27,934 nucleotides of DNA from a virus: the IMG/VR virus record IMGVR_UViG_3300048590_001245, positions 1-27,934 of that record. One strand, written 5' to 3'. A program made the position numbers and the translations under genes. Positions 1,237 to 24,237 of the stretch are shown one piece after another. Position 1 is the first letter of the stretch. Every line of letters starts with the position of its first letter. The notes under the pieces are model-generated. The model did no database searches, was not told the origin of the DNA, and worked only from the letters and a program-made list of their open reading frames with translations.

Positions 1237-2361
1237 CTACTCCATAAAGAAAACGGCAGGCTTTCGCGCCGAGCGAGAAAAAAGCGCCTGAGTGGCCTCG
1301 ACTATTTTTAGACCCCAAAGACCCTCCTTTAGGCCTGGAGAGGTAAGCTCTGCCTCGGAGAACTCAAACTCGACAAGCCCGCTGCCGAGATAAAGATACT
1401 TCTCGCTGTAGTCGGCTGTTTCGAGGCGAAAGCGCCGCTGAAAGTCGTTGAGATAGATCTCGAGCGTCAGCTCGCGCGGGAAAGAGGCGCCCGTGCGCAG
1501 AAGCCAGAAGTCTCTGAGCCCGACCTTGAGGCTGCCAGACGTCTTCTTGGTAAATTCGTACACGAGAGGCCCCCCCATATCGGGGACGGGAGTCGACACC
1601 TCGAGCTCGAGCTCCTGCAGAAGAGCTTGAGCCCCCGCCCCAGCAGGCCAGCCAAGAAGGGCTCCAAGCCGCTCCTTGTAGCGGGCAAGCTCACCTCGAG
1701 CCTCGGCCACTTGGGCCTCAAGCTCCGCTTTGACCCCCTGCAGAAGCCTCTCAGTCTCGGCCTTTTGGGCCTGAAACTCGGCCCGCAGAGCCGCCAGCGA
1801 GGCCTTGGCGACCTCCTTGAAGGTTAAAAACTCCCCTCGGGTGGCGGCCAGCTCTCGCATCAGCTCGAGCGTGTGCCGCTGGCCTTGCGTGAGAGACAGC
1901 GCCACCGCAGCAAGCTCCCGTGCCAAGGAGAGGTTGAGGCGCTCTCCGACCCCTTCGACTGCAATGAGAGAGTCCGGGATCTCTTCGAGAATGAGGTCGA
2001 TGCCAAAAAGCAGGTCTTCCGACGCTATCCGCTTGGCGAGAATCTCGCCTGCCCTAGAGAGCACGGCAAAGAGGATCGGTCCGTCCACCCCTTCGAGGCT
2101 TGCCACAATGCCCATCTCGCCGACGTCGTAGGCTTCTCTCCCAGAGCGAAACTCGGCTGTGAGGTGAACGCGGTTTCCAGAGACCCGGTTTGAGTCGGCA
2201 AGACTCGAAGCCTCGACCCTCTCCTTGAGCGCCTCCTCCGAGCCGTCTGGATCGTAGGAGGCCTTTCCCAGCTCAATGCCGACAAAGCGAAGCCTCTTGC
2301 CCCTGGCCTCGGCCTCGGCCAGGGCCTCGAGCCCGCGTCTTGTAATCCTAGGGCGCTCCAT
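1237..2361 (-). CDS. Tail fibre / tail-collar fibre protein (P2 gpH-like N-terminus)
   Basis: This is a receptor-binding or fibre-attachment protein of the phage tail. The N-terminus, MERPRITRRGLEALAEAEA with RFVGIELGKASYDPDGSEEAL and later YDVGEMGIVASLEGVDGPIL, follows the P2 gpH-type tail-collar pattern (IT..G...LA.A, a GxG-like turn, then E-GI....DG). A central alanine/glutamate-rich helical stretch at about residues 160-245 should form a coiled coil, followed by a C-terminal beta-rich domain. At 374 residues it is short for a gpH fibre, and no long distal repeats are present. The ATG at 2361 overlaps the stop of gpI (TGATG); a TTG one codon earlier is also possible. No VR-like sequence is seen in it, so it is not a second DGR target. 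Confidence 0.78.
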   Translation of the reverse strand: MERPRITRRGLEALAEAEARGKRLRFVGIELGKASYDPDGSEEALKERVEASSLADSNRVSGNRVHLTAEFRSGREAYDVGEMGIVASLEGVDGPILFAVLSRAGEILAKRIASEDLLFGIDLILEEIPDSLIAVEGVGERLNLSLARELAAVALSLTQGQRHTLELMRELAATRGEFLTFKEVAKASLAALRAEFQAQKAETERLLQGVKAELEAQVAEARGELARYKERLGALLGWPAGAGAQALLQELELEVSTPVPDMGGPLVYEFTKKTSGSLKVGLRDFWLLRTGASFPRELTLEIYLNDFQRRFRLETADYSEKYLYLGSGLVEFEFSEAELTSPGLKEGLWGLKIVEATQALFSRSARKPAVFFME

Positions 2362-2927
2362 CAACGCCCCACGACGGCGGCAAAACGCTTGATGCGAGTC
2401 AGGCGCGCAAACATCGCTGCCCCGACTGTGGCCTCGGCCTCAAACATGACGTCGAGGTCAAAGCGGGCTCTAAGCGGCTTTAGCGACTCGATGACGCGCA
2501 GGATGCGGCGTCTTTCGGCCTCGCCAAGGGGGCGGTTGTCCTTGTTGAAAAGGATGACCTTGAAGGTGTAGGGCTCCCTCGGCTCGGGGTGGTCCCACCA
2601 CTCGCGGATTCTAGCCCTGACGCCAAGGGTCTCCATGGCCAAGTCGATGGCAGCCAGGGTGCCGCGCAGCCTTTTGATCTTCTCAAAGCGAGAGATGATC
2701 TCACGGCGCCGCCTCGTCAGGTCGTCTTCGCTCTCCACCCCGACAAAGTCCTCGTCCCACAGCTCAACCCCCCTCTCCCAAGCCAGATACGGCAGAAAGG
2801 CCGGCGGGCAGGTGTCAGGGTCAAAAAGCGAGGCAAAGTCAAAGGAGAGGCCCTCGAGCCTCTGCCCTGCGACCTCCTCGAGCGTCCTCTCAAGCGGCGT
2901 CGAATTTTTCGGCAGAAGGCTTGTCAC
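2361..2927 (-). CDS. Tail protein I (baseplate component)
   Basis: This is the P2 gpI-type baseplate protein, 188 residues. It opens with LLPKNSTPLERTLEEVAGQR and continues DPDTCPPAFLPYLAWERGVELWDEDF, the hallmark of the family (an N-terminal helix, then P..LP.LAW......W). The later RRREIISRFEKIKRLRGT and MFEAEATVGAAMFARL segments also fit. The GTG start at 2927 overlaps the gpJ stop as GTGA, and the gene ends in overlap with the fibre gene. The order gpV, gpW, gpJ, gpI, fibre matches P2, which supports the call independently of motifs. Confidence 0.88.
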   Translation of the reverse strand: MTSLLPKNSTPLERTLEEVAGQRLEGLSFDFASLFDPDTCPPAFLPYLAWERGVELWDEDFVGVESEDDLTRRRREIISRFEKIKRLRGTLAAIDLAMETLGVRARIREWWDHPEPREPYTFKVILFNKDNRPLGEAERRRILRVIESLKPLRARFDLDVMFEAEATVGAAMFARLTRIKRFAAVVGR

Positions 2928-3787
2928 GAGGACATCTCCAGCTTGAGGCCGTCCTCGCCGTCCTCAAGAAGCGGCGCCTCAAAGGCCTCGCACAAGACGC
3001 CGCCCGTGGGCTCGAGCAGCTCGGCCGAGGTGACGTCGTTTTGGGCATGGAGCGCGGCGTAGAGGACAGACGGCTCGAGGCTTGCCCCCACCCGAAAGCG
3101 CGTCCTAAAAAGCTCTCTAAGCGATGCCTCGGCCTGCCCCTGCACCATCCGCCAGTCGGCACCGTAGGGAACCTTAAGACGCGCACGGAGGCGAAAGCGC
3201 CTCAGGCTTGCCTCCTCGACAGTCAGCTGATCGGTCAGCGCGCGCACGTAGGCCATCTTGTCGCGAAGCAGCGCCAGGTCGGCCGCGCGCACCGACTCTT
3301 CTGTCTTGGGGTCAAAAAGAACCCAAAGCTTGATCCGCGCCGGAGAAACCTCGGCGCAGTTGGCGTCGACGACATACCCACCCCCGGAAAGCCGAACGGC
3401 CTTGGCCTGAGCGATGTAGCCGACTTTTGACCCGGCAGCCGACAAGAGATCGTCCTCGTCCAAAAACCGCCCAAGGAGACTCTCGTCTGTCTCGCCAGCG
3501 GCCCTCGTCAAGCCGCGGCGTGCTGCGACGTGATCGAGGTTTGCCCCCCGGGCAAAGGCCGGCATGGTGGCACGCGCGGCCTCGTTCACACGGGCGCGCA
3601 GGAGCAGCTCGCGGTAAGCACACACCTCGAGCACCTTGACGGCGGGGTCTGACTCGAAAAGGTCGACGGCTTCGCCGTAGCGAGCGCGAAAGTCTTCGAG
3701 TAGCTGGCGCTTGATCGCCTCATAGCTCAAGGTCTCCACCACCTCGGGCGCCGGCAGGCGGCGAAGATCGATCACGCCAGCTTTCAC
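2924..3787 (-). CDS. Baseplate assembly protein J
   Basis: This is a baseplate wedge protein of the P2 gpJ / Mu gp47 family, 287 residues, close to the usual 280-300. Typical features are IDLRRLPAPEVVETLSYEA with the following helix, FESDPAVKVLEVCAYRELLLRARVNEAARA, and GANLDHVAARRGLTR, the signature of the family. It then has ETDESLLGRF and a VLFDPKTEESVRAADLALLRDKM stretch. It lies between gpW and gpI with 4-nt overlaps on both sides (GTGA at the start), so the three are probably translationally coupled. Nothing suggests truncation. Confidence 0.92.
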   Translation of the reverse strand: MKAGVIDLRRLPAPEVVETLSYEAIKRQLLEDFRARYGEAVDLFESDPAVKVLEVCAYRELLLRARVNEAARATMPAFARGANLDHVAARRGLTRAAGETDESLLGRFLDEDDLLSAAGSKVGYIAQAKAVRLSGGGYVVDANCAEVSPARIKLWVLFDPKTEESVRAADLALLRDKMAYVRALTDQLTVEEASLRRFRLRARLKVPYGADWRMVQGQAEASLRELFRTRFRVGASLEPSVLYAALHAQNDVTSAELLEPTGGVLCEAFEAPLLEDGEDGLKLEMSS

Positions 3788-14768: not shown

Positions 14769-15047
14769 ATGGAAACAACCAACGCCCGAAAGCTCAGAGC
14801 CGAGCTGAAAGACTATCTCGACCTCGCCGCCACAGAGCCCATCCGCATCAACCGTCGCTCCGGTGAAGCCTTCATCCTCATGCGTGAAGACCTCTACGCT
14901 TCCATGCAAAACGAAATCCTCTCCCTGCAACGCCGGCTGCTCGGTATGTCGCAGGCGCTCGAAGGACAAGGCAGCGCCGTCGAGCCCGGCGAGGTCGCCG
15001 AGCGCCTTCGCGCCCGTGCGCGGGCAAAGAAGGACGCCGCCACGTGA
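14769..15047 (+). CDS. Phd/YefM-like antitoxin
   Basis: This is the probable antitoxin and autorepressor of a type II pair. The ATG at 14769 has GGAGGTG eight bases upstream; an earlier ATG at 14745 lies before that site. The 92-residue protein reads METTNARKLRAELKDYLDLA, then PIRINRRSGEAFILMREDLYASM, the Phd/YefM N-terminal DNA-binding fold in which a short strand pair follows the first helix. The C-terminal LRARARAKKDAAT would contact the toxin. Its stop overlaps the toxin start as GTGA, so the two are co-translated. Confidence 0.75.
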   Translation: METTNARKLRAELKDYLDLAATEPIRINRRSGEAFILMREDLYASMQNEILSLQRRLLGMSQALEGQGSAVEPGEVAERLRARARAKKDAAT

Positions 15048-15388
15048 AAACTCAGCTCGTCGAGCTGCCAAGCTACCTGAGCGACCTGGAAGAGATCCTC
15101 GACTTTCTCGATAAGCAAGACAAAGACGGCGCCGCGCTCTTCTGGTTTGCCGACGAGCTGGAGGCGGTGCTGGAGTTTATCAAGACCAATCCGACCAAGC
15201 CGGGAGTCCACCCCGTCACGGGAGATCAAAGCTGGCCCTTTGGAAAAGGCCACTACCGCATATTTTTCAAATGCACGCAGGCGCCTGAGGCAACGCGCCT
15301 CTACCTGATCCACGTCATCGACAACCGGAGAGCCAATCTGCGCGTCTACCCAAGCAATCGACTGCCAACCTACAACGCCGACGACTAA
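15044..15388 (+). CDS. RelE/ParE-like toxin
   Basis: A 114-residue protein starting at GTG 15044. SYLSDLEEILDFLDKQDKDGAALFWFADELEAVLEFIKTNP is the helical hairpin of RelE/ParE-type toxins; it is followed by strands PGVHPVTGDQSWPFGKGHYRIFF and TRLYLIHVIDNRRANLRVYP. RelE members cleave mRNA on the ribosome, whereas ParE members block gyrase. The sequence alone does not separate these. It is intact and coupled to the antitoxin upstream. Confidence 0.72.
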   Translation: MKTQLVELPSYLSDLEEILDFLDKQDKDGAALFWFADELEAVLEFIKTNPTKPGVHPVTGDQSWPFGKGHYRIFFKCTQAPEATRLYLIHVIDNRRANLRVYPSNRLPTYNADD

Positions 15389-15406
15389 CCCCTCCCCCAA
15401 GAGGGG
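15389..15406 (+). terminator. Short hairpin after the RelE-like toxin
   Basis: CCCCTC, a CCCCAA loop and GAGGGG form a six-pair hairpin starting right after the toxin stop. There is no T-run, so it is at best a weak terminator or a transcript-end stabiliser. Confidence 0.3.
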
Positions 15407-15472
15407 CCGACGGCGCTACGCAGCTACCACCCAAACAAGTCAGCGTCGGTGCCTATAGAGCCCGCTGGAGAG

Positions 15473-15982
15473 ATGATGGTAAACGACGTTAACCAGAAAA
15501 AAGCGGACCTCAGTGAGGCCCAAACCCTTGAGGAGGACTTTCGAGCCCATCGACAAGCCGATTGGGTGGCCCCCCAAGGCGACGAGCGCTCTGAGATCCA
15601 CGAGATCGACCGACAGGTGAAAGAAAACCTCGCCAAGCGTCACGGCGGCGGCCGGCCCAAAAGCGACGAGCCCCTGGTGGCCGTCTACATGAAGTGGCCA
15701 GAGTCGCTGCTTGCCAACGCCAAGGAAGAGGCAAGGCGCCTCAACATCGGCTACCAGAGCTTCATCAAGATGGCCGTCACCGAGTACATCCGTCTAAGAC
15801 GCGCCAGAGAGCGCGAAACAGCCCAGCTCGGCGACAAGTACACGCTCGCAGAGGAGATCGAGGCCGCAAAGAACGACCGCCTCGCCGAGTGGGCGGGAAA
15901 GGTCGAGCCCCTCGATCCCGGCCAATCCGTCGACGAGGTGATCGACGACATGCGGGGAGGCCTCCCCAGAGAGCGCCGCTGA
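15473..15982 (+). CDS. CopG-family antitoxin-like protein, no visible toxin partner
   Basis: The ATG at 15473 (ATGATG) has GGAG a few bases upstream, giving 169 residues; an earlier GTG at 15449 lacks a ribosome site. The centre, GRPKSDEPLVAVYMKWPESL followed by EEARRLNIGYQSFIKMAVTEYI, is a ribbon-helix-helix of the CopG/BrnA kind that binds operators as a dimer. An acidic, charged N-terminus of about 75 residues and a C-terminal SVDEVIDDMRGGLPRE tail flank it. No toxin gene is adjacent: about 80 bases lie upstream and 240 downstream without a good frame. It may be an orphan antitoxin or a plain regulator. Confidence 0.65.
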   Translation: MMVNDVNQKKADLSEAQTLEEDFRAHRQADWVAPQGDERSEIHEIDRQVKENLAKRHGGGRPKSDEPLVAVYMKWPESLLANAKEEARRLNIGYQSFIKMAVTEYIRLRRARERETAQLGDKYTLAEEIEAAKNDRLAEWAGKVEPLDPGQSVDEVIDDMRGGLPRERR

Positions 15983-18468: not shown

Positions 18469-21400
18469 ATGCCCAAGCACCACCAACTCTCCTCGGCTCT
18501 GACCGGGCTGTGGCTCGCCCTGGCGCCGCTGGCTGCTAGCGCAGGCCCGTTCCCGTTGTCCTACGGCGGACGCCTGACTGATGCGACCGGTGCACCGTTG
18601 TCGGGGCCGGTCGATCTTGCCGTGAATTTCTTCCGAAGCGAGACCGGCGGCAATCCGCTGCTCGGCGAGCCGGTCGTCGCCCCCTCCGAGACCCTTCAGG
18701 ACGGAGTTTTCCAGCTTACTCTCGATCTGCCGGTCGACGACTACACGACGATTTTCCCCTCGGCCGAAACGACCGCCTATATCGAGATCACCGACCAGAC
18801 CAACGCGCGCACCTATCCCCGGCAGCGCTTTACTGTCGTACCGCTGGCAGCCCGGGTGCCGGTCGACGGCAGCACCGTGACGTTTGACGACAACGGCCGC
18901 CTCAAGGCCACTCTTCCGGCCGCCGCGGCCAATACGCCCGGCGTGATCAAAGCGACCGGCGCCTTCGTCGAAGTCGACGCAGGGGGTGACATCACCGCCA
19001 TCAAACAAGCACAGAGCTTCTCCGGCACGCTGAGCGGTGACGTCAGCGGCACGCAGAATGCCACAGTGGTCACCAAGATCCGCGGCAAGGCCTTCACGGA
19101 TGCGCTCGATGCCAGCAATGACCAGAAGGTCGTCAAGTGGGACAACGCCACCGGCAGCTTCAAGCTCATGAACGACATTGCCAGCGGCGGCCTGAACGCT
19201 GGCGACGTCACGTCGACCACCATAGCCGACGGCACCATCGCAAACGCCGACATCAGCGCCTCGGCCAACATCGATGCCGGCAAGATCGGCACGGGAGCAG
19301 TCGACAACACGCACTTCAACTATTTGGCGGGCCTGACCTCAGACCCGCAAGCCCAGCTCAACGCCAAGCAGTCGACCATCACGGCCGCCACCGTCCTGCC
19401 GGTCGGCTCGCTCACCACGGACCTGCAGGCCGCCGTGACGCTCGGCGGCTATGGCAGCGGCGCGGGACAAACCGGCGAGCTGCGCTTTACCGAGCGTGAC
19501 GGGCTCGAGAGCAACTACGTCGGCCTCAAGGCGCCCGACGCGGTCGCAAGCAATCAGATCTGGACTCTGCCAGCCGCAGACGGCACGGCCGGCCAGCTGC
19601 TCAGCACAAATGGCTCGGGCGCCTTGTCTTGGGTGACAGCAACCACCGCCAGCTCGGGAGACACCCTGACCAACAAGACGATCAGCGCCGACGACAACAC
19701 GATCACGGGCATCGACGACTCGGAGATCAAAACAGGCGCGGGTATCGCCCGCGCCAAGCTGGCTTCCGGCACGGCTTCCCACGTGCTCGTCAACGACGGC
19801 AGCGGCGTGATGAGCTCCGAGGCGCAGCTTTCGATCTCCCGCGGCGGCACCGGGGCCGCCACCGCCAGCGCGGCACTCACCAACCTGCTACCCGCCCAGA
19901 CCGGCAACTCCGGCAAGGTTCTCTCGACCGACGGCACGGCGGCCTCGTGGAGTGCTCTCAACGCGGCCAACTGGGACACGGCGCACACCGACCGCCTGAA
20001 GTGGGACGGCGGCTCTGCCGGCCTCGTCGCCGCCACCGGCCGAACGAGCCTCGGCCTCGGCACATCGGCTACGCTCGATGCCGGCACCGCCGCCAATCAA
20101 CTGGTGCAGCTCGATGGCACGGGCAAGCTGCCAGCCGTCGACGGCTCGGCCCTTACCAGCCTCAGCCCCGCCAACCTCAGTGCGGCCGTGGCCGTAGCCA
20201 AGGGCGGCACCGGCGCGACGACGGCCGATGGAGCTCTGACGAATCTTCTGCCCGCACAGACGGGCAACTCCGGCAAGGTGCTCACGACCGACGGCAGCAC
20301 GACGTCGTGGCTTGCTCTCAGCACCAGCAACTGGAATACAGCCTACAGTGAGCGTCTGCAGTGGGACGGCGGCTCTACCGGCCTTGTCGCTGCGACGGCC
20401 CGCACCAGCCTAGGCCTCGGCACGGCCGCCACGTTGGACGTCGGCACCACTGCCAACAAGGTCGTGCAACTCGACGGCACTGCCAAGCTGCCCGCCGTCG
20501 ACGGCTCGCAGCTCACGAGCGTCGTCACGACAGCGACGGTCGACAGCGCCGGTGCCGTGATGAACGGCGACTTCGGCTCAAACGGCCTGATGGCCCGCAC
20601 CGGTGCGGGGACCTACAGCGTCGTGACCGATAACTCCGCCAACTGGGACACCGCCTACACGGACCGCATGAAATGGGACGGCGGTGCCACCGGCCTGGTC
20701 GCCGCGACCGCGCGCACCAGCCTCGGCCTTGGCACCAGCGCGACACTCGATGTCGGCACCACCGCCAACAAAGTCGTCCAGCTCGACGGTAGTGCCCGGC
20801 TTCCGGCCGTCGACGGCTCGCAGCTCACCAATTTGCCGGCAGCCAGTCTCACCTGCCCCACGGGCTATATCCTGGTGCCGGGCAATGCGAGCTTCACCAA
20901 CGCAAGCTTCTGCGTCATGAAGTACGAGGCTAAGAAGGATGGCGCCACCGGCCAGGCCGTCTCGACCGCCACGGGCACCCCCTGGGTCAACGTCTCCTGG
21001 TATGAGGCTCAAAGCGCCTGCAAGCGGGTCGGCGGCCACCTTGTCAACGAAGGCGAGTGGATGACCATCGCTCGCAACATCGAGGCAACCGCCATCAACG
21101 ACATCGACTCTGCAGCCGGCATCCAGCTTGCCACCGGCCACTCCGACAACTCTCCGGCTAGCGCCTTGGCCGCGGTGGCGGACCCCTCGCTTGCGAGCTG
21201 CACGCTGACCCTTGCACTCTCCGATGCCAGCAACAACTCCTGCGCCCTGCGTGGCCCCGGCACCTACGCCAACAACAGCACCGACTACGGCTACTACGGT
21301 ACCAGCAACGGCTACAGCACAGCCTACTCGGCTGGTGGTGCCAACAAGTCGCAAATGCGCACCCACGTCCTCAGCAACGGCAATGTCATCTGGGACATGG

Positions 21401-21711
21401 CCGGCAACGTCTGGGAGTGGACGGATGCGCAATGCGATACGACGAGCTGGTACACCACCGGATGGGTCGAGTGGAACAACGCCAACGTCACCGACTGGGA
21501 GAAACTAGTCGCTGGCCCAAGCGGCTCTCTGACCTCCTCAAACGGGGCCGGTCAGTATTATGGATGCAGCGCAAGTGGCAATGCCCTGCTCCGCGGCGGC
21601 CTCTGGTACTATGGCCCGATCGCCGGCGTGTTCGCCGCCACTCTGTACTATGGGCCGTCGGACGTCAGCAGCTCCGTGGGCTTTCGCTGCGCCTTCTCCA
21701 ATGCCCACTAA
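18469..21711 (+). CDS. DGR target protein: exported, tail-fibre-like repeats, FGE/C-type-lectin domain
   Basis: A 1080-residue surface or secreted protein that is diversified by the DGR. The N-terminus is a Sec signal peptide (hydrophobic ALTGLWLALAPLAASA, cleavage likely after ASA at about residue 24). A beta-sandwich-like domain (SYGGRLTDATGAPLSGPVDL) follows. Residues 500-790 carry three 65-residue copies containing RTSLGLGTAATLDVGTTANK and LPAVDGSQLT, the type found in phage tail fibres. From about 794 the formylglycine-generating-enzyme-like fold begins: CPTGYILVPGNASF, FCVMKYEA, VSWYEAQSACKRVGGHLVNE, MAGNVWEWTD, and GFRCAFS at the end. That domain presents 12 template-adenine-dependent codons at 1045-1069, of which 11 differ from the template. 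GGAG lies 9-10 bases before the ATG. There is no anchor at the C-terminus, so how it stays on the surface is unknown. Confidence 0.9.
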   Translation: MPKHHQLSSALTGLWLALAPLAASAGPFPLSYGGRLTDATGAPLSGPVDLAVNFFRSETGGNPLLGEPVVAPSETLQDGVFQLTLDLPVDDYTTIFPSAETTAYIEITDQTNARTYPRQRFTVVPLAARVPVDGSTVTFDDNGRLKATLPAAAANTPGVIKATGAFVEVDAGGDITAIKQAQSFSGTLSGDVSGTQNATVVTKIRGKAFTDALDASNDQKVVKWDNATGSFKLMNDIASGGLNAGDVTSTTIADGTIANADISASANIDAGKIGTGAVDNTHFNYLAGLTSDPQAQLNAKQSTITAATVLPVGSLTTDLQAAVTLGGYGSGAGQTGELRFTERDGLESNYVGLKAPDAVASNQIWTLPAADGTAGQLLSTNGSGALSWVTATTASSGDTLTNKTISADDNTITGIDDSEIKTGAGIARAKLASGTASHVLVNDGSGVMSSEAQLSISRGGTGAATASAALTNLLPAQTGNSGKVLSTDGTAASWSALNAANWDTAHTDRLKWDGGSAGLVAATGRTSLGLGTSATLDAGTAANQLVQLDGTGKLPAVDGSALTSLSPANLSAAVAVAKGGTGATTADGALTNLLPAQTGNSGKVLTTDGSTTSWLALSTSNWNTAYSERLQWDGGSTGLVAATARTSLGLGTAATLDVGTTANKVVQLDGTAKLPAVDGSQLTSVVTTATVDSAGAVMNGDFGSNGLMARTGAGTYSVVTDNSANWDTAYTDRMKWDGGATGLVAATARTSLGLGTSATLDVGTTANKVVQLDGSARLPAVDGSQLTNLPAASLTCPTGYILVPGNASFTNASFCVMKYEAKKDGATGQAVSTATGTPWVNVSWYEAQSACKRVGGHLVNEGEWMTIARNIEATAINDIDSAAGIQLATGHSDNSPASALAAVADPSLASCTLTLALSDASNNSCALRGPGTYANNSTDYGYYGTSNGYSTAYSAGGANKSQMRTHVLSNGNVIWDMAGNVWEWTDAQCDTTSWYTTGWVEWNNANVTDWEKLVAGPSGSLTSSNGAGQYYGCSASGNALLRGGLWYYGPIAGVFAATLYYGPSDVSSSVGFRCAFSNAH
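19969..20835 (+). repeat. Three 65-residue coding repeats in the DGR target
   Basis: Copies at 19969-20163, 20329-20523 and 20641-20835 encode near-identical blocks, beginning NWDTA or NWNTA and ending AVDGS.LT. Copies 1 and 2 are also preceded by a shared 45-residue block (GGTGA...TNLLPAQTGNSGKVL), so a longer unit was duplicated. These probably form the stalk that holds the variable domain away from the cell. Confidence 0.8.
21582..21695 (+). repeat. DGR variable repeat (VR)
   Basis: This 114-bp segment ends 16 bases before the end of the target gene. Against TR (24071-24184) it is identical at all 92 non-adenine positions. Thirteen of TR's 22 adenines are replaced: seven by T, four by C, two by G. 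Changed codons encode residues 1045, 1047, 1048, 1050, 1051, 1058, 1060, 1061, 1065, 1067 and 1069. The last 20 bp (GTGGGCTTTCGCTGCGCCTT) contain no adenine and are the expected initiation-of-mutagenic-homing region. Just past 21695 the two repeats diverge at non-adenine bases. Confidence 0.97.
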
Positions 21712-21750: not shown

Positions 21751-21769
21751 CTGGGGGCGTAGCCCCCAG
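21751..21769 (+). other. DGR hairpin downstream of VR
   Basis: CTGGGGGC and GCCCCCAG form an eight-pair GC-rich stem with the loop GTA, 39 bases after the target stop and 55 bases after VR. In Bordetella phage BPP-1 a similar hairpin/cruciform behind VR aids target recognition. Here the loop is three bases and the distance is longer. It might also end transcription of the target gene, though it has no T-run. Confidence 0.65.
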
Positions 21770-21776
21770 CGGCTCC

Positions 21777-21803
21777 ATTTCGGAAATTTCCGAAATTTCG
21801 GAA
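21777..21803. repeat. 9-bp repeat cluster 1
   Basis: Three tandem units ATTTCGGAA, ATTTCCGAA, ATTTCGGAA, then a diverged fourth. Units alternate between the two orientations of TTCSGAA, so 21777-21796 is a perfect 20-bp palindrome. The cluster starts seven bases after the VR hairpin. Confidence 0.85.
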
Positions 21804-21874
21804 ATTGTGCCGAAACAGCACATTCGCGTAAGTTGTTGATTTAATTTATTATGTCTATTTCTCCATCAGGCAGC

Positions 21875-21942
21875 ATTTCCGAAACTTCGGAAACGTCACT
21901 TCCGCAACTTCCGCAACTTCGGAAATTTCCGAAATTTCGGAA
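21875..21942. repeat. 9-bp repeat cluster 2
   Basis: Seven units of the form AYTTCSGMA (ATTTCCGAA, ACTTCGGAA, a 5-base break, ACTTCCGCA twice, ACTTCGGAA, ATTTCCGAA, ATTTCGGAA). It lies 79 bases upstream of the DNA-binding protein start and is the most degenerate cluster. The last three units repeat the alternation of cluster 1. Confidence 0.85.
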
Positions 21943-22020
21943 ATTATGCCAGTCAGGAATTTTCTCCTTTTGAGTGAGGATATCCCCTGCTAGGGTGCTT
22001 TGCGCTCCCAATCAAGGATC

Positions 22021-22719
22021 ATGCCGCCCGCGATGCCACGCCGCAGCCAGCCCCAATCCCAGCTCGAGGTAAGCGTCGATACTGCCGCGAAATCTCTCGG
22101 TGTTTCTGAGCGCATGGTCCTCAACTACATCAAGGCCAGACAGATCAAGGCGCTGCGTGTCGGCAAGCGCTGGTATGTCGACCTCGCCTCGCTGGAGGCC
22201 TTTCGGCAGGCCAGCGGTCTCACGGAAAGGGAGCCTCAGGCCATTTCCGAAACTTCGGAAATTTCGGAAATTTCGGAAATTTCGGAAACGCTTCCGAAGT
22301 CGCCGGAGGCCACAGGCAGCGAACGCCCGCCGCGCCCCAGGCGGGCCTCCTCTGGGAAGAACCTCGACGGGCTTGCCTGCTACCGGCTGTGCCTGGAGGC
22401 TTTCCGGATGCCGATGTGGGGGGACGCCGACAAGCTCCGCTACGGCCATCGACTGCGTGATCTGCAGGGCGCGATTCTCGAGCAGCTCGGCTCCGGGTTC
22501 TATTCGTATGGCGCAGAAAAGCGCGCCTACTATGACCGCTCCCGAGGACTGATCGGTGCGGCGTTGGCGCTCGTTTACAGTGATCCTGATGCGAGGCTGC
22601 GTTGGGCCAGCGACGTCGCCTTTCTGGAGGGCGATGTGCTGCCCGCGTTTGCGTCTTTGATCAAGAAAATCGAGCGTGGTCAGGACCGCGACGGCCGGGG
22701 GCGACGCCATGAGCGCTAG
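22021..22719 (+). CDS. HTH_17/excisionase-like DNA-binding protein with helical C-terminal domain
   Basis: The ATG at 22021 has AAGGA very close upstream; ATG 22033 is an alternative. The protein has 232 residues. Residues about 20-70 are an excisionase/MerR-like winged helix: VDTAAKSLGVSERMVLNYIK then RQIKALRVGKRWYVDLASLE. The linker at 75-93 contains SEISEISEIS, encoded by 9-bp repeat cluster 3. From about residue 117 a helix-rich domain of about 105 residues follows (ACYRLCLEAFRMPMW, LRYGHRLRDLQGAILEQL, GLIGAALALVYSDPDARLRW, VLPAFASLIKK). Its size and helix layout recall Avd, which is encoded next, so it may be a diverged Avd-like bundle. Its stop overlaps avd by 11 nt. It probably regulates the DGR or helps recognise the target; this is inference. 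Confidence 0.8.
   Translation: MPPAMPRRSQPQSQLEVSVDTAAKSLGVSERMVLNYIKARQIKALRVGKRWYVDLASLEAFRQASGLTEREPQAISETSEISEISEISETLPKSPEATGSERPPRPRRASSGKNLDGLACYRLCLEAFRMPMWGDADKLRYGHRLRDLQGAILEQLGSGFYSYGAEKRAYYDRSRGLIGAALALVYSDPDARLRWASDVAFLEGDVLPAFASLIKKIERGQDRDGRGRRHER
22243..22287 (+). repeat. 9-bp repeat cluster 3, inside the DNA-binding protein gene
   Basis: Five tandem units (ATTTCCGAA, ACTTCGGAA, then ATTTCGGAA three times), followed after ACG by the palindromic CTTCCGAAG to 22299. The nine-base period keeps the frame and encodes ISE/TSE triplets in the linker. The first two units match the first two of cluster 2. Confidence 0.85.
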
Positions 22720-23086
22720 AAGCCCCAAGATCCTCGCCGACAGCTACCAATTGACCGTCATGGTATTTGGAAGAACACGCAGCTTTCCCAAACACTACCG
22801 CCCGACACTTGGCCGCCGCCTGGAGGACCGGGCGATCGACCTGACGTCAGCCGTCCGCGTCGCTAGCCTTGCCAAAAGTGGCGGCAAAGACTCGCGGCGG
22901 TCCGCCTCCTTGGAGAGCGCCTCGGAGCACTTGGACGAGATCCGGATTCTGCTTCAGCTTTCGCATGACATGCAGATCATTCCGACCACCGGCTATGCCG
23001 AGCTGAGCGAGCTGACCGCCGAGGTCGGTCGGCAGATCGGTGGCTTTGGGAAGTTCGAGGCGGATGCCCGTGACCACGCTCCTTGA
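22709..23086 (+). CDS. avd: DGR accessory variability determinant (Avd)
   Basis: A 125-residue four-helix bundle protein that forms a pentameric barrel, binds the template RNA and is needed with the reverse transcriptase for adenine-directed cDNA synthesis. ATG 22709 has GGGGG six bases upstream. Characteristic blocks: SFPKHYRPTLGRRLEDRAID, then SLESASEHLDEIRILLQLSH, and EVGRQIGGFGKF at the end, equivalent to the FP...R..LG.RL, L..A...L...R.LL.L..D and GR.LGGW motifs of Avd. Basic residues in helices 1 and 2 would face RNA. It overlaps the upstream gene by 11 nt and the reverse transcriptase by about 23 nt, so expression is coupled. Confidence 0.92.
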   Translation: MSARSPKILADSYQLTVMVFGRTRSFPKHYRPTLGRRLEDRAIDLTSAVRVASLAKSGGKDSRRSASLESASEHLDEIRILLQLSHDMQIIPTTGYAELSELTAEVGRQIGGFGKFEADARDHAP

Positions 23087-24017
23087 CGAGGTGGCGGCGT
23101 TCGAGAACCTTGCACGGGCTTTCCAGCTCTGCGCACGCGGCAAGCGTGCCTCGACCGGCTATCAGCGCGCCATGTTTGCCCACGGCGAGAAGCTCGTCGC
23201 CATGCGCGGCAAGATCCTAGCAGGCCAGTATCGCTGGGGACGCTACCGGGAACTCTTGGTGAGAGACCCCAAGTCGCGTCGCGTCTTGGCGGCTCCCTTT
23301 ATGGACCGCGTCGTCCATACAGCCATCCACGAGATCATCGAGCCGATCCTCGATCCCCTGGTACCGGAGAGCGTGTATGCCTGCCGTCACGGCAAAGGCA
23401 ACCGGAAGGCCGCGACGGATCTTCTTGCGGTGCTTCGCGAGCATGGCAAAGACCGCTTCGTCATCAAGCTCGACGTCGCGCAATACTTTGCCTCGATCCG
23501 GCATGACGTGCTGCTCGCCAAGCTTTTCGAGGCGCTGCCAGACCGGAGTCTCGAGCCTCTTCTGGCTTCACTCCTGCAAAGCCATGCCGAGTATGCCTCT
23601 CGCGGCTACGGCATCCCGATCGGAAACCTGACGTCCCAGGTGTTTGCCAACTTTTATCTCGTCTCCGCCGACCGTGTCGCCACCGAGCAGCTCAAAGGCG
23701 GCTTCTACTTCCGTTACATGGACGACATGGTCCTCGGGGGCCGCAATAAGTCGGTGGTCCTCGACGCGGCCGACGCCGTGACCCAGCACGTCGAAAGCGA
23801 GCTGAGACTTTCGATTCCCCACTTCAAGCGGATGCCGCTCGGTAACGCGCCCGTGCCGTTTTTAGGATATGTGCTCGATCACGGCGGCTATCGGATTCTA
23901 AGCCGCAACAAGAGGAGGTTTGCCAAGCGGATAGGGCGCCTGGAACGCTCGGGAGCCCGCCCGAGCCGGATGGCGCAGAGCGAGCTGTCGTTTCGTTCTT
24001 TCGAGAATTTGCTATGA
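23064..24017 (+). CDS. DGR reverse transcriptase
   Basis: This enzyme copies the TR RNA into cDNA with random bases opposite adenines. ATG 23064 has GAGG six bases upstream and gives 317 residues; a GTG at 23040 is earlier but has no better site. Key motifs: KLDVAQYFASI at about 135-145 (motif 3, first catalytic Asp), GIPIGNLTSQVFANFYL at about 183-199, in which IGNLTSQ replaces the QGxxxSP of other reverse transcriptases and is diagnostic of DGR enzymes, and FRYMDDMVL at about 216-224 (catalytic YMDD). FLGYVLDHGGYRIL is the motif 7 region. No maturase or endonuclease domain is present, as expected. It is followed 53 bases later by TR. Confidence 0.96.
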   Translation: MPVTTLLDEVAAFENLARAFQLCARGKRASTGYQRAMFAHGEKLVAMRGKILAGQYRWGRYRELLVRDPKSRRVLAAPFMDRVVHTAIHEIIEPILDPLVPESVYACRHGKGNRKAATDLLAVLREHGKDRFVIKLDVAQYFASIRHDVLLAKLFEALPDRSLEPLLASLLQSHAEYASRGYGIPIGNLTSQVFANFYLVSADRVATEQLKGGFYFRYMDDMVLGGRNKSVVLDAADAVTQHVESELRLSIPHFKRMPLGNAPVPFLGYVLDHGGYRILSRNKRRFAKRIGRLERSGARPSRMAQSELSFRSFENLL

Positions 24018-24070: not shown

Positions 24071-24184
24071 TGCCCTGCTCCGCGGCGGCAACTGGAACAA
24101 TGGCACGAACGCCGGCGTGTTCGCCGCCAATCTGAACAATGGGCCGTCGAACGTCAACAGCAACGTGGGCTTTCGCTGCGCCTT
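24071..24184 (+). ncRNA. DGR template repeat (TR) within the template RNA
   Basis: This 114-bp copy is the unchanging donor for VR. In VR's frame it reads ALLRGGNWNNGTNAGVFAAN and so on. Eleven of the 12 adenine-bearing codons begin with A and ten are AAC or AAT, the codons that reach most residues without stops when adenines change. The final 20 bp match the VR end perfectly. It lies 53 bases after the reverse transcriptase stop, so the template RNA is probably the 3' part of the operon transcript. RNA ends are unknown. Confidence 0.96.
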
Positions 24185-24237
24185 GTCGTTCGCCCGGCGG
24201 CCGTGAGACTTGGGGGTTCGCTGTCTGCGTGAGGGAA

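Follow-up and report, generated by a model that had tools for sequence, protein, structure and literature searches.

A DGR cassette carried by a phage holds rows of a short palindrome, TTCSGAA, in three places: just beyond its variable repeat (VR), ahead of the first gene of its operon, and within that gene, which encodes a helix-turn-helix (HTH) protein. Distantly related bacteria show the same layout, which makes it probable that the repeats serve as landing sites for the encoded protein. The arrays are, moreover, restricted to these DGR loci. That the HTH protein binds the arrays is very probable. With less assurance, we lean on sequence grounds toward a fuller reading, in which the protein would bind the arrays cooperatively, bridge them, and most likely regulate the DGR operon negatively.

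The window, the whole stretch of 27,934 nucleotides that was analysed, is an IMG/VR phage contig (IMGVR_UViG_3300048590_001245) with head and packaging genes, an integrase, and the DGR cassette, whose features lie on the plus strand. The target gene (18469..21711) ends in an FGE-sulfatase/lectin-type C-terminal domain (Pfam FGE-sulfatase, 3.6e-6) that holds the VR (21582..21698). Self-comparison with the VR places the template repeat (TR) at 24071..24187. The two repeats are 88% identical, and 13 of their 14 differences over 117 positions fall at an adenine in the TR, which identifies the cassette as a DGR. VR sequences vary between phage haplotypes. Past the VR, the sequence predicts a hairpin, CTGGGGGC-GTA-GCCCCCAG (21751..21769), with an 8-bp GC-rich stem and a 3-nt loop (4 nt in the relative L010); it resembles the BPP-1 target hairpin, as far as that is described in the accessible text (PMC3240598). 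There follow the HTH protein gene (22021..22719, ATG at 22021), bAvd, the accessory variability determinant (22709..23086; PHROG 3206 Avd, 9.7e-17; Pfam bAvd, 1.1e-8, under the curated cut-off), and the reverse transcriptase (RT) (23067..24017; PHROG 1423, 7e-72; Pfam RVT_1, 3e-17). These three reading frames overlap and thus probably form a single operon. The nearest relatives of the RT occur in loci that also contain Avd and TR-like sequence. With a DGR-type RT, an adenine-directed TR/VR pair, and Avd all present, the cassette is, as judged from its sequence, a DGR. (Elsewhere in the window, at 15044-15982, two adjacent small genes resemble by eye a toxin-antitoxin pair; the first has no Pfam match.)

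The window contains 16 copies of TTCSGAA where 4.4 would be expected, and none of 100 shuffles reaches 16; 14 of these sites are concentrated within 520 bp (21779-22298). Eight lie between the VR and the HTH gene, where 1000 dinucleotide shuffles give a mean of 0.18 and never reach 8. Tandem Repeats Finder reports period-9 arrays at 21777-21806, 21900-21945, and 22243-22288, and an additional 18-bp row at 21875-21945. Array 1 (21777..21806; like the other two, assigned no strand) starts 8 bp past the hairpin and consists of three 9-bp units, ATTTCSGAA. Array 2 (21875..21945), delimited by repeat scan and haplotype alignment, stands before the HTH gene and comprises two units, degenerate TTCCGCAAC units, and a three-unit core. 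Array 3 (22243..22298, from the repeat scan) lies in the stretch that codes for the protein's linker: five 9-bp units and one shifted site, in frame and encoding ISETSEISEISEISETLPK. The initial annotation had described three such clusters, the last of them coding for the linker, and both points stand: the clusters are real, with 14 sites within 21777-22298. Its description of the units as alternating in orientation is correct for arrays 1 and 2 (G,C,G; C,G; G,C,G) but not for array 3 (C,G,G,G,G,C); array 3 of the relative L012 alternates fully. A scan of the intergenic region found no terminator or sigma-70 promoter; an extended −10-like stretch, TGCTAGGGT, can be seen by eye at 21988-21996. 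A known RNA element was considered and rejected, with Rfam matches only far under gathering scores.

Three phage haplotypes could be aligned across the arrays. Array 1 and the core of array 2 are each identical at 31 of 31 ungapped columns, and the outer part of array 2 at 17 of 21. The array cores are thus identical at 62 of 62 columns against 82 of 121 other between-gene columns, in a comparison whose array columns were picked after alignment and which omits the hairpin, outer array 2, and some flanking columns. Unit number differs: array 2 of the window has one TTCCGCAAC unit more than the other haplotypes, array 3 is one unit shorter in L010 and L012, and one array 3 unit of L012 is turned to the opposite orientation by a synonymous Ser change. 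Every Glu and Ile in array 3 is coded by GAA or ATT, codons that make up 17% and 15%, respectively, of those for the same residues in ten phage genes; in codon choice the array stands apart from the rest of the phage. A collection of 2.9 million was searched with the 27-base array pattern, which was found in five other viral contigs, all relatives of the window phage, and a looser pattern brought in 13 further viral contigs, one place each. A family-alignment search of viral contigs recovered only the five relatives already known, and no homologue of the HTH protein was found in annotated phages and plasmids at E 0.01.

Structure models divide the predicted 232-residue protein into three parts: a winged helix-turn-helix (wHTH) domain (residues 16-66), a disordered linker (70-113), and a four-helix bundle (115-231). 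The first part matches Pfam HTH_17 (1.7e-9; 38.3 bits, cut-off 27), as do nine of nine family members at a looser limit, and its closest structures are Pukovnik Xis and BldC. The best structural matches of the bundle are Avd and S23/IVP proteins, with rmsd of about 1.8-2.4 over about 100 residues; VIA-align Z-scores are 11.2-12.8 to Avd and 11.6-13.2 to IVP, against 11.0-11.7 for an unrelated bundle. Foldseek gave no match to the bundle below 0.001, comparison with Avd and S23/IVP sequence profiles gave hhalign probabilities of 0.1-2% (P 0.02-0.4, not significant), and a conserved stretch of the bundle, LGAGYYSFG..K, is absent from the Avd alignment. On these models, the bundle is probably Avd-like in fold, rather than by proven descent. 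This extra domain sets the protein apart from BldC-family members, which are lone wHTH domains; by analogy, it may nonetheless work like BldC on DNA.

At the loci of the nearest bacterial DGR RTs (42-64% identity), this HTH gene directly precedes avd, with two exceptions: in L081 a transposase-like gene intervenes, and in L082 only the end of the HTH gene is on the contig. Profile searches found HTH homologues beside DGRs in 7 of 58 genomes of one class and in 17 of 368 genomes of another phylum; the latter set yielded 19 loci, 17 with an adjacent Avd and 16 with an adjacent RT. The 28 loci tabulated represent 23 protein clusters at 60% identity, the table leaving out L255 (a split gene) and the fragments L082, L185, L214, G100, G170, and G121:C85. 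Searching these loci for the repeat around the HTH gene, as the initial annotation had proposed, was strongly positive: at least two sites lie upstream in 18 of the 23 clusters, and at least two inside the linker-coding stretch in 8. Canonical arrays are absent in five clusters (L080, L184, L253, L254, and L256).

From this arrangement we infer binding by the HTH protein, bridging, and repression, in the following general model. Several wHTH domains of the BldC/Xis type would occupy adjacent positions on the DNA, tied into a single complex by their C-terminal bundles. Spanning the start of the HTH-avd-RT operon, this complex would keep the post-VR array and the in-gene array together, with negative autoregulation of the operon as the most likely output. 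In-gene sites would fall in the linker because no other part of the protein is free to take on constraint at the DNA level. Autoregulation is favoured because the HTH gene leads the operon, the arrays flank its start, and RdfS, which belongs to the same HTH group, is a repressor of its own promoter, according to the part of that study available (PMC11963761). Points that weigh against this model are the five clusters without canonical arrays, the presence of in-gene arrays in just 8 of 23 clusters, the negative sigma-70 scan, the 9-bp phage spacing in place of 10.3 bp, and the A at position 9 of the phage unit where the BldC consensus has C.

The position of the arrays, however, fits a role at the VR better than that of a plain operator, since their distance to the VR is the steadier. 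Across 15 loci, the array lies 68-228 bp past the VR stop in every case, whereas its distance from the HTH start ranges from 13 to 322 bp (Levene P 0.0001; the set includes L213, where the last counted site is inside an intervening gene and about 1.9 kb separate the main array from the HTH start). The array-bound HTH protein could, through its Avd-like bundle, bring the RT-Avd-RNA complex to its target, or could keep the DNA after the VR bent or open for efficient write-in of the mutagenic cDNA; that complex would be extended further by the in-gene array. The arrays of L213 and L185 stay by the VR even though other genes separate them from the HTH gene, and the resemblance of the bundle to the Avd and S23/IVP folds is as this account would predict, although the sequence homology of bundle and Avd is not significant. 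(The gene between array and HTH gene in L213, at 2062-3783, looks by eye like an AAA-ATPase.) In L183 (G022:C41), the TR is inverted relative to the VR, the arrays, and the HTH gene, which is compatible with either reading.

Remote VRs point both ways. The remote VR L316, with no adjoining HTH gene in the stretch read, is followed by two sites 20 bp apart, 133 bp past the stop, as expected if arrays belong to the VR; against this, the remote VR L320 has no array after it, although it comes from an array-bearing genome. Five sites accompany the remote VR L318, on a contig that ends before the next gene. The remote VRs in G003 and G037 are without arrays, a result that decides nothing because the HTH loci of those genomes, L080 and L184, themselves have no canonical arrays. 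(Many copies of GAAGATCGTCACGGAGACG lie downstream of a remote VR in L205, G037:C4.) Given the steadier VR distance, the two loci with intervening genes, and the divided evidence of L316 and L320, a role at the VR is a serious rival to autoregulation, and both may hold; taken as the account of the arrays, we consider it possible but doubtful.

Alternatively, the sites might serve some other phage or host factor, in replication, partition, or excision. Against this, they are nearly confined to these loci: among the 21 genomes of the family, the paired-site pattern falls inside these DGR loci at 39 of its 40 places, contrary to a genome-wide scatter unrelated to DGRs, which the initial annotation had named as grounds for abandoning the idea. 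Of 118 other DGR loci, 1.02 Mb in all, 117 have at most two sites per 300 bp and one has three; 16 DGR loci of the same phylum, from genomes without the HTH gene, likewise have at most two. L184 and L214, moreover, have a variant half-site, GCGGAA/TTCCGC, upstream of the HTH gene, and their proteins have a different recognition helix, HPRTIRNL, a hint from sequence that site and protein change together. Excision is suggested by the fact that HTH_17 proteins are often excisionases, but the integrase is about 8 kb away. One of the contigs found with the looser pattern, L065, from an unrelated phage, does hold ten TTCSGAA sites (2249-2525) in an intergenic stretch by a primase-like gene, with no DGR seen; perhaps these are an array for another protein. 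On balance, a separate factor is an improbable owner of the DGR arrays.

Within the DGR loci, too, the sites are placed selectively. The 28-locus table gives 7.30 sites per kb upstream of the HTH gene (119 in 16.3 kb) and 13.62 in the linker-coding stretch (66 in 4.85 kb), against 0.78 in the HTH domain (3 in 3.8 kb), 0.11 in the C-domain (1 in 8.8 kb), and 0.11 in downstream genes (5 in 47 kb). Synonymous resampling of the linker (400 runs) gave a mean of 6.1 sites and a maximum of 15, compared with the 66 observed. Up to about 100 bp, the separations between sites cluster at multiples of 10.3 bp (R 0.71, n=286; matched in none of 1000 null runs), and for in-gene sites R is 0.87 at 10.3 bp but 0.08 at 3 bp (n=110). 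The phasing set took one locus per close group, leaving out the phage clade and L239 (three sites); its null, random placement within each span, ignores common descent, and the density and phasing totals count related loci repeatedly, so that the figures are descriptive and short of proof. The phage itself, with its 9-bp spacing, is the exception. A repeat driven by the protein would track codons; these sites track the double helix, as fits proteins lined up on one face of the DNA. What the analysis shows for the arrays is selection on the DNA, not on the protein sequence, and helical phasing in relatives. Helical phasing and synonymous resampling lead us to reject as very improbable a neutral minisatellite, whose 9-bp units would slip (unit number does differ by one among phage haplotypes, in arrays 2 and 3) and be tolerated in the gene where they read SEI in frame: in relatives, in-gene spacing is 10 bp or multiples of 10.3 rather than codon multiples, and unlike sequence separates many sites; linker sites are tenfold above the synonymous expectation, and the adjacent coding sequence is nearly site-free.

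Known systems resemble this one in part. The BPP-1 DGR (mtd-avd-TR-brt), in the portions of its descriptions available, shares the VR target, the GC hairpin after the VR, Avd, RT, TR, and adenine-directed differences; in the window, by contrast, the operon starts with an extra HTH gene, arrays occur both past the hairpin and within that gene, and the TR comes after the RT (PMC3240598, PMC12875486). BldC of Streptomyces has the same wHTH fold and, in the accessible text, binds 9-bp direct repeats, AATTXXXX(C), head to tail, a period equal to that of the phage arrays; it differs in having 68 residues and no C-terminal bundle, in being a chromosomal developmental regulator, and in the C of its consensus at position 9, where the phage unit has A (PMC5859096). 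Pukovnik Xis and RdfS share the HTH_17 winged-helix fold but act at att sites with integrase, whereas the HTH gene of the window is a companion of DGRs, and its product includes a fused bundle. Among structures, the four-helix bundles of DGR Avd and S23/IVP proteins are the best matches for the C-domain; neither has significant sequence similarity to it, and a separate Avd is encoded adjacent to the HTH gene. In some DGR loci, an HTH gene replaces VMAP (PMC10907252); in the part of that article available it reads as an effector, distinct from the gene described here. The initial annotation knew of no DGR with such an arrangement, and none with such a protein or array was found in the accessible portions of the open-licence literature either (including PMC8934634, PMC8144416, PMC10907252, PMC6642488, PMC3240598, and PMC12875486).

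A bolder proposal, in which we place little confidence, is that wHTH and Avd-like bundle together make a hitherto undescribed DGR accessory protein, the DNA-targeting subunit of the DGR machinery, whose helix-phased arrays would mark the 3' side of the VR and be written as a second code into its own linker, so that one complex would both pick the target and set expression.

Together, these results describe a clade in which a putative DNA-binding accessory protein is accompanied by a defined array in cis, at the edge of the target. They offer a clear case of a putative DNA-binding array within coding sequence that is in step with the helix and not with the codons. They also make DGR regulation, and target recognition beyond the hairpin, testable with one protein and one motif.
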